DNA of 58,518 nucleotides from Oerskovia enterophila (lineage in GTDB: Bacteria; Actinomycetota; Actinomycetes; Actinomycetales; Cellulomonadaceae). This document shows, piece by piece, positions 7,421-10,285 of this stretch. Under the pieces are notes generated by a model that had not been told where the DNA came from, ran no database searches, and worked only from the letters and a program-made list of their open reading frames with translations. Numbering within the stretch: the first letter of the stretch is position 1; the number at the start of each line of letters is the position of its first letter. The translations under genes and the position numbers were made by a program. Where the stretch lies: positions 1 through 58,518 of the forward strand of contig NZ_MAQA01000027.1 in NCBI RefSeq assembly GCF_001692445.1. The letters are read 5' to 3'.

Positions 7421-8626
7421 TCACGTGCTGGGCATCCGCCCCGCGACGGCCCGGACGACGGCTCGTCCGGCCAGCCCCACGAGGAGCACCGCCCCACCCG
7501 CGAGCACCGACGCCGGCGGGAGCGAGGCGGCGAGCACCACGCACCCGACGAGTCCCAGGACCTGGAGGACGCGGGGCCGGCGACGGTCGTCGGGCCCCTG
7601 CGTGAGGGCCGCGAGGTTGGCGACCGCGTAGTACGTCAGCACCGCGAAGGACGAGAACCCGACGGCCGTGCGGAGGTCGGCGACCAGGACGAGGACGACG
7701 AGGACGACCCCCAGCACGGCCTCGGCGCGCGCGGGCACCCGGTGGACCGGGTGCACCACCGCGAGCGGGCGCGGCAGGTCGCCCTCCCGCGCCATCGCGA
7801 GCGTCGTCCGCCCCACCCCGGCGACGAGCCCCAGCAGCGCTCCCCCGCAGGCCGCGGCGGCGCCGACCCGCACGATCAGGTCCCCGCCGGGCCACCCGGC
7901 CGCGCCGACGACGTCGGCGAGCGGCGCCGTCGAGCCGGCGAGGCCGTCCACGCCGAGCGCCCGCAGCGCGCCGACCCCGACCACCGCGTACACGACCACC
8001 ACGATCCCGAGCGCGAGCTGGATCGCACGCGGGATCGTGACCCGCGGGTTCCGCACCTCCTCACCGAGCGTCGCGATCCGTGCGTACCCGGCGAACGCGA
8101 AGAACAGCAGTCCCGCGCTCTGGAGCACCCCGTACGCCCCCAGGGGTGCTCCCGCCCCCGGCGCGGCCCCTGCGACGGGGGCCTGCCACGCGACGACGAC
8201 CACGAGCACCAGCACGAGCGCCGTCACGGCGACCAGGAGGCGCGTCACCTGGGCCGTGCGGGTCACGCCCCGGGCGTTGACGGCGACCAGCGCCACGACG
8301 ACGAGCGCGGCCACGGGTCGCTGCGCGCCGGGGGCGGCATAGGCCGCGAAGGTCAAGGCCATGGCCGCGCACGAGGCCGTCTTCCCGACGACGAACGACC
8401 ACCCCGCGGCGAACCCCCACCACGGCCCCAGGCGTTCACGCCCGTACGCGTAGGCCCCGCCCGACGTCGGGTAGCGAGCCGCGAGCTGCGCCGTGGACGT
8501 CGCGTTCGCGTAGGCGACCAGGGCCGCGAGCGCGAGCCCCGCGAGGAGCCACCACCCGGCCGCGGCGGCCGCCGGGGCGAAGACCGCGAACACTCCGGCG
8601 CCGAGCATCGAGCCGACGCCGATCAC
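7421..8626 (-). CDS. APC-superfamily amino-acid permease
   Basis: An amino-acid/polyamine/organocation transporter with about twelve membrane segments. Seen: VIGVGSMLGAGVFAVFAP (helix 1 unwound substrate site), YPTSGGAYAYGRERLG (conserved loop), FFAFAGYARIATLGEEVRNP (helix 6 region) and RTTLAMAREGDLP. The substrate cannot be named. The family-like sequence ARRLGLADS continues about 10-25 codons upstream of GTG 8626, yet no ATG, GTG or TTG lies in frame there; only two CTG codons do. The true start may therefore be a CTG, or the 5' end may carry an indel. GTG 8626 is the first conventional start. The gene is divergent from the T-box/aspS unit. Confidence 0.82.
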   Translation of the reverse strand: MIGVGSMLGAGVFAVFAPAAAAAGWWLLAGLALAALVAYANATSTAQLAARYPTSGGAYAYGRERLGPWWGFAAGWSFVVGKTASCAAMALTFAAYAAPGAQRPVAALVVVALVAVNARGVTRTAQVTRLLVAVTALVLVLVVVVAWQAPVAGAAPGAGAPLGAYGVLQSAGLLFFAFAGYARIATLGEEVRNPRVTIPRAIQLALGIVVVVYAVVGVGALRALGVDGLAGSTAPLADVVGAAGWPGGDLIVRVGAAAACGGALLGLVAGVGRTTLAMAREGDLPRPLAVVHPVHRVPARAEAVLGVVLVVLVLVADLRTAVGFSSFAVLTYYAVANLAALTQGPDDRRRPRVLQVLGLVGCVVLAASLPPASVLAGGAVLLVGLAGRAVVRAVAGRMPST

Positions 8627-8790
8627 GACGCTGTCGGCCAGCCCCAGGCGCCGGGCGAGCGGGGCGGGCCGAGGGGGCTGGGCGGGCTCTGCGGTCCTGG
8701 TGCGACCGTAGCGAGAGCGGGTGAACGGGGGGTGCCGTGCACCCGGCGTCCGCCCGGAGAAATCCCGCGACGCCCCGGCTGCACCATGGG

Positions 8791-8971
8791 TAGGGTCGGG
8801 ACCGGTGGACGTGAGGCGTGACGACCCTCGGCCCGGCTCTCGCAGCTCGGGCGGGCGTCCCCCGCGCGTGCGGCGTACCGACGAGAGGCCGGGACCTCCC
8901 GGCGAAGGAGTGGTGGCACAGCGACCTAGCCCCCGCCCGCTCCTCCCGGGCCTTCGCCTGCTGGAGGACCC
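8791..8971 (+). ncRNA. translational T-box riboswitch leader of the AspRS gene
   Basis: The T-box core GGTGGCACAGCG (8912-8923) matches the consensus GGTGGNACCGCG except at one base. It folds into the antisequestrator: helix A1 8907-8913 with 8937-8943 (7 bp, one G-U), 7-nt bulge UGGCACA 8914-8920, helix A2 8921-8923 with 8934-8936, loop 8924-8933. The competing helix pairs TCCTCC (8941-8946) with GGAGGA (8963-8968), which holds the Shine-Dalgarno of ATG 8972. The two folds share bases 8941-8943 and exclude each other. The variable base is C8917, which would pair with G73, as in tRNA-Asp and tRNA-Asn. Stem I is not resolved; AGGGTCG/CGACCCT (8792-8798/8822-8828) is a candidate, but TAGGGT 8791-8796 could instead be the -10 box. 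Confidence 0.85.
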
Positions 8972-10285
8972 ATGAGACCACCCACCCCACCCGTCGCGCT
9001 TCCCGGCCCCCGCACTCTCGCCGCCGACCTCTCGTCCGTGCCGCCCGGCACGTCCGTGACGCTCCGCGGCTGGGTGCACCGCCGCCGCGAGCTCGCCGCA
9101 GTCACCTTCCTGGTCCTGCGCGACCGGTCGGGCCTCGCCCAGGTCGTCGTGCGCGCGGGAGACGGGCAGGACGTGCCGCCCGAGGAGACCGTGGTCGAGG
9201 TGACCGGGGTCGCCACGGCGAACGCCCAGGCACCTGGGGGGATCGAGGTCACCGCGCCGACCGTCGCCCCCCTGACCGACCCGGCCAGGACCCCTCCCGT
9301 CGAGCTGTGGCGTCCTGCGCTCGACGTGGCGCTGCCGACCCTGCTCGACCACGCGGCGGTCGCGTGGCGCCATCCCGCCCAGCGTGCCCGGTGGGAGGTC
9401 GCGGCCGCGTCGCTGAGAGGCTTCCGGGAGGTGCTCGACGCGCAGGGGTTCACCGAGGTCCACTCTCCCAAGATCGTCGCGTCGGCGACCGAGTCGGGGG
9501 CGAACGTGTTCGCGGTCGACTACTTCGGCGGTCCCGCCTTCCTGGCGCAGAGCCCTCAGTTCTACAAGCAGCAGCTCGTCGGGGTGTTCGAGCGCGTGTA
9601 CGAGGTGGGGCCGGTCTTCCGCGCCGAGCCGCACGACACGGTCCGCCACCTCGCCGAGTACGTCTCGCTCGACGTCGAGCTCGGGTTCGTGCACGACCAC
9701 CGCGACGTGCTGCGGGTGCTGCGCGACGTCCTGGCGGGCATGGTCGCAGGGGTGCACGAGCTCGCGGCAGGGGCGGTCGCGACCCAGGGCTTCGAGGTCC
9801 CGGTCGTGCCCGACGAGATCCCCGTGATCCACTTCGCCGAGGCCCTGGCCCTGGTCGGCGCGCCCGCGGACGAGCCCGACCTGGCCCCCGAGCACGAACG
9901 CGCCCTGGGGAGGTGGGCGCTCGCCGAGCACGGCAGCGACTTCCTCGCCGTCGAGGGCTTTCCGATGGCCAAGCGCCCCTTCTACACGCACCCCCAGCCC
10001 GACGACGCGCGGTGGAGCAACAGCTTCGACCTGCTCTTCCGCGGTCTCGAGCTCGTCACGGGCGGGCAGCGGCTGCACCGGCACGCGGACTACGTCTCAG
10101 CGATCACGGCCCGTGGCGAGGACCCGGCCGCGTACGCGACCTACCTCGAGGCGTTCGAGCACGGCATGCCGCCGCACGGCGGGTTCGCGATCGGCCTCGA
10201 GCGCTGGACGGCTCGCCTGACGGGGGCGGCGAACGTCCGGGAGGTCACGCTGTTCCCGCGCGACCTGCACCGGCTCGTGCCCTAG
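8972..10285 (+). CDS. aspS: aspartate--tRNA(Asp/Asn) ligase, archaeal-type (non-discriminating class)
   Basis: A 437-residue class IIb synthetase of archaeal AspRS length, lacking the long insertion of bacterial AspRS (about 590 residues). An N-terminal OB-fold anticodon domain (residues about 10-105, GWVHRRREL, TFLVLRDRSG) precedes the catalytic core with motif 1 GFTEVHSPKIV, SPQFYKQQ, motif 2 VFRAEPHDTVRHLAEY and motif 3 GGFAIGLERW. The C-terminus EVTLFPRDLHRLVP is typical of archaeal enzymes. It charges tRNA-Asp, and probably tRNA-Asn for later amidation; a bacterial-type AspRS elsewhere in the genome would be expected. The start has SD GGAGG at 8963-8967 and sits under the T-box leader. 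It is transcribed alone and faces the ABC exporter genes across an inverted repeat. Confidence 0.93.
   Translation: MRPPTPPVALPGPRTLAADLSSVPPGTSVTLRGWVHRRRELAAVTFLVLRDRSGLAQVVVRAGDGQDVPPEETVVEVTGVATANAQAPGGIEVTAPTVAPLTDPARTPPVELWRPALDVALPTLLDHAAVAWRHPAQRARWEVAAASLRGFREVLDAQGFTEVHSPKIVASATESGANVFAVDYFGGPAFLAQSPQFYKQQLVGVFERVYEVGPVFRAEPHDTVRHLAEYVSLDVELGFVHDHRDVLRVLRDVLAGMVAGVHELAAGAVATQGFEVPVVPDEIPVIHFAEALALVGAPADEPDLAPEHERALGRWALAEHGSDFLAVEGFPMAKRPFYTHPQPDDARWSNSFDLLFRGLELVTGGQRLHRHADYVSAITARGEDPAAYATYLEAFEHGMPPHGGFAIGLERWTARLTGAANVREVTLFPRDLHRLVP

Follow-up and report, generated by a model that had tools for sequence, protein, structure and literature searches.

A probable tRNA-Asp-specific T-box riboswitch upstream of an archaeal-type aspartyl-tRNA synthetase gene in Oerskovia and other actinobacteria

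The leader of aspS2, a gene for an archaeal-type aspartyl-tRNA synthetase (AspRS), in the window (the whole stretch of DNA that was analysed, 58,518 nucleotides of Oerskovia enterophila) is very probably a cis-acting T-box riboswitch that is specific for tRNA-Asp. Judged by sequence comparison, it is a T-box variant that is backed by covariation, is made Asp-specific by its specifier and in all likelihood acts on translation. The first-pass annotation had proposed such a translational T-box, sensing tRNA-Asp, on an archaeal-type AspRS; comparison with related genomes supported this, and the specifier, the strength of the sequestrator and the range of genes were corrected. The comparison yielded helices that covary, namely A1 and A2 of the antisequestrator as well as stems I and III, together with a conserved GAC, the association with the gene and a conserved -10-like box. 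The following features are discussed:

8791..8796, + strand: -10-like box TAGGGT, from the conservation of TANNNT; implied 5' end at ~8802-8805
8807..8811, + strand: candidate closing helix P1, 5' strand GGACG, pairs with 8856-8860
8813..8829, + strand: stem I hairpin, GAGG / CCUC (8813-8816 with 8826-8829) with a 9-nt apical loop (8817-8825), from covariation
8820..8822, + strand: specifier GAC (Asp codon, fits anticodon GUC), from its invariance in alignments
8832..8851, + strand: side-arm hairpin in the place of stem II, flanked by stem I and the P1 3' strand, seen by eye in the window
8856..8860, + strand: candidate closing helix P1, 3' strand CGUCC, pairs with 8807-8811
8863..8888, + strand: nearly invariant module CGCGCGUNCGGCGNAYCGACGAGAGG (group A), from the leader alignment and an open scan
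8888..8903, + strand: stem III (8888-8893 with 8898-8903), from covariation
8907..8943, + strand: antisequestrator, from pairing across 102 leaders
8941..8968, + strand: sequestrator, UCCUCC 8941-8946 with GGAGGA 8963-8968, from duplex energies
8963..8967, + strand: Shine-Dalgarno GGAGG, from the sequence
8972..10285, + strand: aspS2 (archaeal-type AspRS, 437 aa), from family scores and a structural match

The aspS2 gene and its host genome

The aspS2 product scored 522.8 bits against NF003483, over the cut-off of 353, and 348.7 against TIGR00458, just below the cut-off of 368.4, and its closest solved match was AspRS2 of T. thermophilus (1n9w/3kfu). In an alignment to 3nel, W26 and K85 of the Thermococcus enzyme are replaced by H and P in AspRS2, which we take to be the mark of a non-discriminating AspRS. 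From its sequence, aspS2 probably encodes an archaeal-type, non-discriminating enzyme. A bacterial-type AspRS is also encoded in this genome (L002). None of the 7 matches obtained in the genome looked like an AsnRS; since the more distant of these resemble LysRS, and an AsnRS should outscore them, AsnRS is presumably absent. aspS2 was found in 7/7 Oerskovia genomes, with an identity of 96% for O. douganii and 89% for O. rustica. Opposite the aspS2 leader lies a divergent gene for an APC-type amino acid permease (7421-8692, - strand).

The antisequestrator and stem III

The antisequestrator drawn in the first-pass annotation (7-bp A1, UGGCACA bulge and 3-bp A2) was confirmed base by base. In the window, A1 pairs GGAGUGG (8907-8913) with CCGCUCC (8937-8943), giving 7 bp with one G-U, the bulge UGGCACA occupies 8914-8920, and A2 pairs GCG (8921-8923) with CGC (8934-8936). 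For the comparison, 133 parsed leaders and the window were thinned at <85% identity to 102 leaders, in which close relatives that differ by indels may remain, as identity was counted without gaps. A1 and A2 were paired at 1019/1020 places, compared to a mean of 993 and a maximum of 1000 when partners were swapped (500 shuffles; the controls ignore relatedness), and both helices were fully paired in 101/102 leaders. Pair 1 of A1 was GC in 95 and AU in 6 leaders, pair 3 UA in 97, AU in 2, CG in 1 and UG in 2, and pair 5 UA in 77, CG in 13 and UG in 12, while A2 consisted of GCG-CGC in 97, GGG-CCC in 4 and ACG-CGU in 1. The patterns with which the leaders were found had fixed the bulge (GGCA was required) and part of the A1 5' strand, not the 3' strands. 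The bulge UGGCAC(C/A) occurs in 102/102 leaders, a count that is not independent, GGCA being part of the search pattern; it ends in ACA and not in ACC in the window and in 14/102 leaders.

In an alignment of 13 leaders, the antisequestrator structure was 99.2% paired, with 17 two-sided cells compared to 5.9 in shuffled and 0-2 in slid controls. Stem III had two-sided changes in 3/6 pairs in the same alignment, with 98.7% of the cells paired.

The search with Rfam T-box models that the first-pass annotation had suggested did not match the leader. There was no match in the whole window at the gathering threshold, none for the T-box models on 8650-9050 at E<=10, and none for RF00230 in the genome of the window; the predicted fold was no more stable than shuffled sequences (z of 0.11 and -0.58). 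Across the class, RF00230 gave matches at E<=0.001 in 99/197 genomes, and 0/197 genomes had one over the cut-off, even though this class is known to contain ileS T-boxes. Among 30 RF00230 loci, 23 lie before ileS-like genes by eye, and L241, L252 and L255 lie before archaeal-type AspRS genes. HMMs were run at three of the loci, where L240 matched an ileS model with a partial gene, under the cut-off, and L241 and L252 were also included. At the gathering threshold, Rfam matched 1/20 loci (L092, Chloroflexi) and then 0/10 further ones. The leader is accepted as a T-box despite the silence of Rfam and of folding energies, because it recurs before actinobacterial AspRS genes and because A1 and A2 covary.

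Stem I, the specifier and tRNA identity

Stem I, which had been left unplaced, could be assigned to 8813-8829 with the specifier GAC at 8820-8822. The helix corresponds to columns 2-5 with 15-18 of alignment A2, where 10 of the 13 leaders have AU and the other 3 have GC at pair 3-17. In an open scan of 43 leaders, a stem I pair ranked first, with 41/42 cells paired (CG 27, AU 7, UA 4 and GC 3). UGAC was invariant in 13/13 (six of them from Oerskovia) and 9/9 aligned leaders, and the triplet after GAC varies (GAC, GAA, GCC, GAU, ACC). The GAC triplets that had been proposed earlier, 8808-8810 in a candidate stem I and 8880-8882, are present, but both were rejected as specifier, as the leader alignment puts the conserved hairpin elsewhere. 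The earlier hint that tRNA-Asp is sensed is backed by the invariant GAC, which would pair with the anticodon of this tRNA.

By pattern, the 102 leaders were divided into 63 of a hairpin class, 24 of a GAA-bulge class and 15 unclassified ones. Because the pattern of the hairpin class presupposes UGAC, alignments A2 and A3 were used to establish the specifier. Where stem I is long, GAC lies within GAA-GAC-(A/C) in 21/24 parsed cases; the 24 members of the GAA-bulge class comprise these 21 with GAC and one each with GAG, ACG and CCA, which are probably mis-hits of the pattern. All 15 unclassified leaders contain GAC by eye. In L138, where the leader has a long stem I and the gene that follows encodes a SerRS (TIGR00414 over the cut-off), UCC is found at the place of the specifier, and T-boxes before ileS-like genes carry UGGUACC; codon and variable base thus track the gene.

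The match of the variable base C8917 with G73, pointed out previously for tRNA-Asp and tRNA-Asn, was borne out. ARAGORN, run on 30/49 tRNA loci of the genome, gave one tRNA-Asp and one tRNA-Asn gene, both with G73, so that pairing is possible with either. Therefore the bulge cannot separate the two tRNAs and it is the specifier that does so.

The 5' end, closing helix and conserved module

Leaders in which stem I is small and apical and the CGCGCGU module is present are referred to as group A, and those that have a K-turn-like loop and a lower helix as group B. In 43/45 group A leaders, TANNNT was found 25-30 bases before the loop (C/G)UGAC, compared to a mean of 4.2 and a maximum of 10 in 500 shuffles. 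From the position of this box, the first base of the RNA is expected immediately 5' of P1, and the conservation of the box makes a 5' end beyond 8905 less likely.

P1 seems to join bases 5' of stem I to bases just before the invariant module. As a class, the helix had a native mean of -11.94 kcal/mol in 45 leaders, compared to a permuted mean of -9.84 and a permuted minimum of -11.26 (5000 permutations), although P1 had first been spotted by eye in the same sequences that were later used for these statistics. Native pairing was better than the median swap in 36/45 leaders and among the best 5% in 5/45; the signal is modest leader by leader because many leaders are alike and GC-rich. The P1 pairs given for the window (8807-8811 with 8856-8860) are a manual reading, and the program picked a different pairing.

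The side arm varies in length and is almost missing in some relatives; in the open scan, columns 43-44 with 103-104 were paired in 71-80% of the cells, with several pair types. A stem II base formed by CGGCC 8829-8833 with GGCCG was rejected, as judged by eye it is not preserved in L095, L115 and L116. The CGCGCGU module may stand in for stem II and the purine string. Known short T-boxes carry a K-turn, an S-turn and a IIA/B pseudoknot; a K-turn-like GUUGA/GA was seen by eye in group B leaders and not in group A.

The sequestrator and the Shine-Dalgarno sequence

The sequestrator that had been drawn over the Shine-Dalgarno sequence of the synthetase gene exists and has three bases, 8941-8943, in common with A1. 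The pairs of the Shine-Dalgarno sequence with 8942-8946 are unvaried in 13/13 leaders, and a helix that is almost invariant cannot covary. Thus the check for covariation in related genomes gave two-sided changes for A1/A2 but no covariation support for the sequestrator helix. In duplex calculations, for which start codons and Shine-Dalgarno positions were picked by script, the A1 3' region of 65 AspRS2 leaders paired with the Shine-Dalgarno sequence with a mean of -15.7 compared to -8.4 for shuffled sequences, and 49/65 were among the best 5%. The duplex of the window reached -12.6, with 17/100 shuffles equal or better, and that of the sister leader L034 (O. douganii) -15.5. The window duplex is weaker because C8947 faces U8962 and interrupts a helix that is longer in the remaining Oerskovia leaders; of the six leaders from this genus in alignment A2, the window alone has C8947, and six plus three pairs are kept. 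The proposed sequestrator is therefore strong in the majority of relatives, whereas a mismatch weakens it in the very strain for which it was proposed. A mutually exclusive helix over the Shine-Dalgarno sequence was found for the AspRS2 leaders as a set and is weak in the window, where the mismatched sequestrator is marginally above shuffles and repression may be leaky. An 8-bp helix of GGCGAAGG with CCUUCGCC (8901-8908 / 8951-8958) was rejected, as it is whole in Oerskovia leaders only (by eye).

For 37 AspRS1 leaders, a helix between the A1 3' strand and the Shine-Dalgarno sequence was at chance level (-7.4 compared to -6.7, best 5% in 3/37). This simple sequestrator was rejected for AspRS1 leaders in favour of a local hairpin, which covers the Shine-Dalgarno sequence in 36 leaders with -12.4 compared to -7.0, and best 5% in 25/36.

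Recurrence across genomes and synthetase types

Order-wide, AspRS2 (E<=1e-100) was identified in 13/297 genomes, with 14 copies, and the leader was found before 14/14 of these. A covariance model built from 13 group A leaders matched 15/394 genomes of the class: 12 before AspRS2, 2 before bacterial-type AspRS and 1 before SerRS. In the family that holds the two matches before bacterial-type AspRS, 70/186 genomes had one match each; the 116 genomes without a match are a loose figure, as large covariance searches use stricter filters and lose weak matches. AspRS2 (E<=1e-100) was present in 26/186 genomes of this family, and in 26/26 a model match lay directly before it, with a gap of <100 bases. 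In 24 of these 26 genomes, a second match at the level of a bacterial-type AspRS was found (20 among the matches listed), without a model match of its own, and two incomplete genomes (G668, G739) had no second AspRS match. In the other 44 genomes with a model match, 43 matches precede a bacterial-type AspRS by motif and one lies at a contig end; the bacterial type was confirmed by HMM at 3/3 tested loci (L130, L132, L171). Since this family has the leader before a bacterial-type AspRS, it is not confined to the second synthetase.

Of 80 loci from relatives, 37 could be parsed as T-box plus AspRS and 8 more were recognized by eye from the motif (L053, L056, L060, L063, L065, L069, L071, L092); the remaining 35 are mostly not actinobacterial. 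In L117 and L123 the AspRS2 copies contain an internal TAG, and in genome G126 a second AspRS2 copy lacks such a stop and is preceded by a T-box of its own (L125). The Streptosporangiaceae aspS2 of L046 has no clear T-box in front of it. In Chloroflexi, the aspS2 T-boxes of L071 and L092, and less clearly that of L075, seem to be followed by terminator-like hairpins with T runs (by eye), which suggests that these T-boxes are under transcriptional control.

Alternative explanations

A chance resemblance in GC-rich DNA, or a constraint from overlapping frames such as 8721-8975 on the + strand, is extremely improbable. Open frames do overlap the leader, the minimum free energy is no better than that of shuffles and Rfam is silent, but two-sided changes were found in many leaders when compared with swapped-partner and slid controls, alignment gaps vary in length and the association with the gene is consistent. 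It is very unlikely that the T-box senses tRNA-Asn, or both tRNAs, and feeds Asn-tRNA formation through a non-discriminating synthetase as in Clostridium acetobutylicum. The G73 of tRNA-Asn, the H and P of AspRS2 at the W26/K85 places (under the assumed rule) and the presumed lack of an AsnRS would all agree with this, whereas the invariant triplet is GAC and the next one varies, and a like leader also precedes a bacterial-type AspRS.

Control of transcription, by Rho or a terminator, with an incidental pairing of the Shine-Dalgarno sequence, is quite unlikely. No T run follows the antisequestrator of the window, pairing with the Shine-Dalgarno sequence is strong across the set of AspRS2 leaders, and in AspRS1 leaders this sequence is covered by a hairpin of a different kind; the weak sequestrator of the window and the hairpins of the Chloroflexi loci mentioned above would be in line with it. 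A decayed T-box in this Oerskovia strain, leaky or constitutive through C8947 and the ACA bulge, is unlikely and would be compatible with the T-box reading for the family as a whole. Both the uniqueness of C8947 among the six Oerskovia leaders and the loss of duplex energy relative to L034 point in this direction, but the remaining parts are intact, ACA also occurs in other leaders and most sequestrator pairs are left.

Proposed mechanism

For the preferred reading, a T-box that senses tRNA-Asp and acts on translation, we infer the following course of events, from the 5' end and the binding of tRNA to the switch itself, the direction in which it acts and the use of the enzyme as a reserve. The transcription start probably lies immediately 5' of the leader, and the anticodon GUC of tRNA-Asp would pair with GAC 8820-8822 in the small loop of stem I. 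When tRNA-Asp is uncharged, its 3' end GCCA would pair with UGGC 8914-8917 and hold the antisequestrator, by which the Shine-Dalgarno sequence would stay free and AspRS2 would be made. With charged tRNA-Asp, the antisequestrator would not be held and 8941-8946 could cover the Shine-Dalgarno sequence. AspRS2 would thus serve as a reserve synthetase that is called on when charging of tRNA-Asp drops, for example upon aspartate shortage or upon failure or inhibition of AspRS1.

The chances are about even that these leaders form a new structural T-box class and a cassette that is exchanged between archaeal- and bacterial-type AspRS genes, with different expression platforms on each. In the proposed architecture, a specifier hairpin and a variable side arm lie inside a closing helix at the first transcribed bases, and the nearly invariant 26-nt module replaces the usual stem II S-turn and pseudoknot.

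Comparison with known T-boxes

T-box classes I-IV were defined in PMC10482949, and actinobacterial T-boxes have been reported upstream of ileS (PMC1262725); ileS T-boxes of Nocardia farcinica and Mycobacterium belong to class III and those of Actinomyces to class IV. Compared with the accessible descriptions in PMC1262725, PMC10482949 and PMC7583486, the leader resembles the actinobacterial ileS T-boxes in its short stem I, apical-loop specifier, UGGN bulge, stem III and Shine-Dalgarno sequestration. The apical loop, of 9 nt by standard pairs, differs from the penta- or hexanucleotide loop of the ileS class (PMC10482949, accessible part). Unlike ileS T-boxes, with Ile and variable base U, the leader has Asp and variable base C, and it contains P1 with a variable side arm and the nearly invariant CGCGCGU module. 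It is the same kind of RNA as RF00230, yet RF00230 stays below threshold in the class and unmatched in the genome of the window.

The T-box of aspS2 in the Firmicute C. acetobutylicum, which precedes a second, archaeal-type AspRS, is said to sense tRNA-Asn (work of Saad et al.). It shares with the present leader the position before a second AspRS of archaeal type and differs from it in its tRNA, whereas here a GAC specifier and Shine-Dalgarno sequestration are found.

In the accessible part of PMC4206432, acquisition of a second AspRS is called rare and work on the C. acetobutylicum T-box is cited. A total of 32 T-boxes in 12/19 actinobacterial genomes is given in PMC2494555 and a class II T-box model built on actinobacteria in PMC7778990, with the genes not itemised in the accessible parts of either. 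The accessible parts of PMC2494555, PMC7927825 and PMC9437257 name no actinobacterial aspS T-box, and that of PMC7583486 discusses ileS and contains no word beginning with aspart-. Among the matches listed in a search of titles and abstracts, none was on an actinobacterial Asp T-box. The T-box database TBDB may already list some of these leaders; in print, an actinobacterial Asp T-box is likely new, and the compact stem I with a closing helix (partly by eye) and the use on two AspRS types are apparently new. As far as the accessible parts of PMC1262725 and PMC7583486 go, actinobacterial T-boxes are described for ileS only, and an Asp T-box on both AspRS types that is missed by Rfam suggests a larger actinobacterial repertoire. 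With expression of an additional AspRS linked to uncharged tRNA-Asp, as proposed, a reserve role of this enzyme becomes open to testing, and structural studies would gain a tRNA sensor of compact size.

The aspS2 T-boxes of Kribbella, Micromonospora and Nonomuraea have the same antisequestrator, the same gene and GAC within GAA-GAC, but a longer stem I with the specifier outside a small apical hairpin (by eye). The long form is possibly the older one. Upstream of a single kind of gene, a long stem I may thus be reduced to a minimal one. In L241, a GAC T-box is located before an archaeal-type AspRS gene from a different lineage (TIGR00458 over the cut-off).
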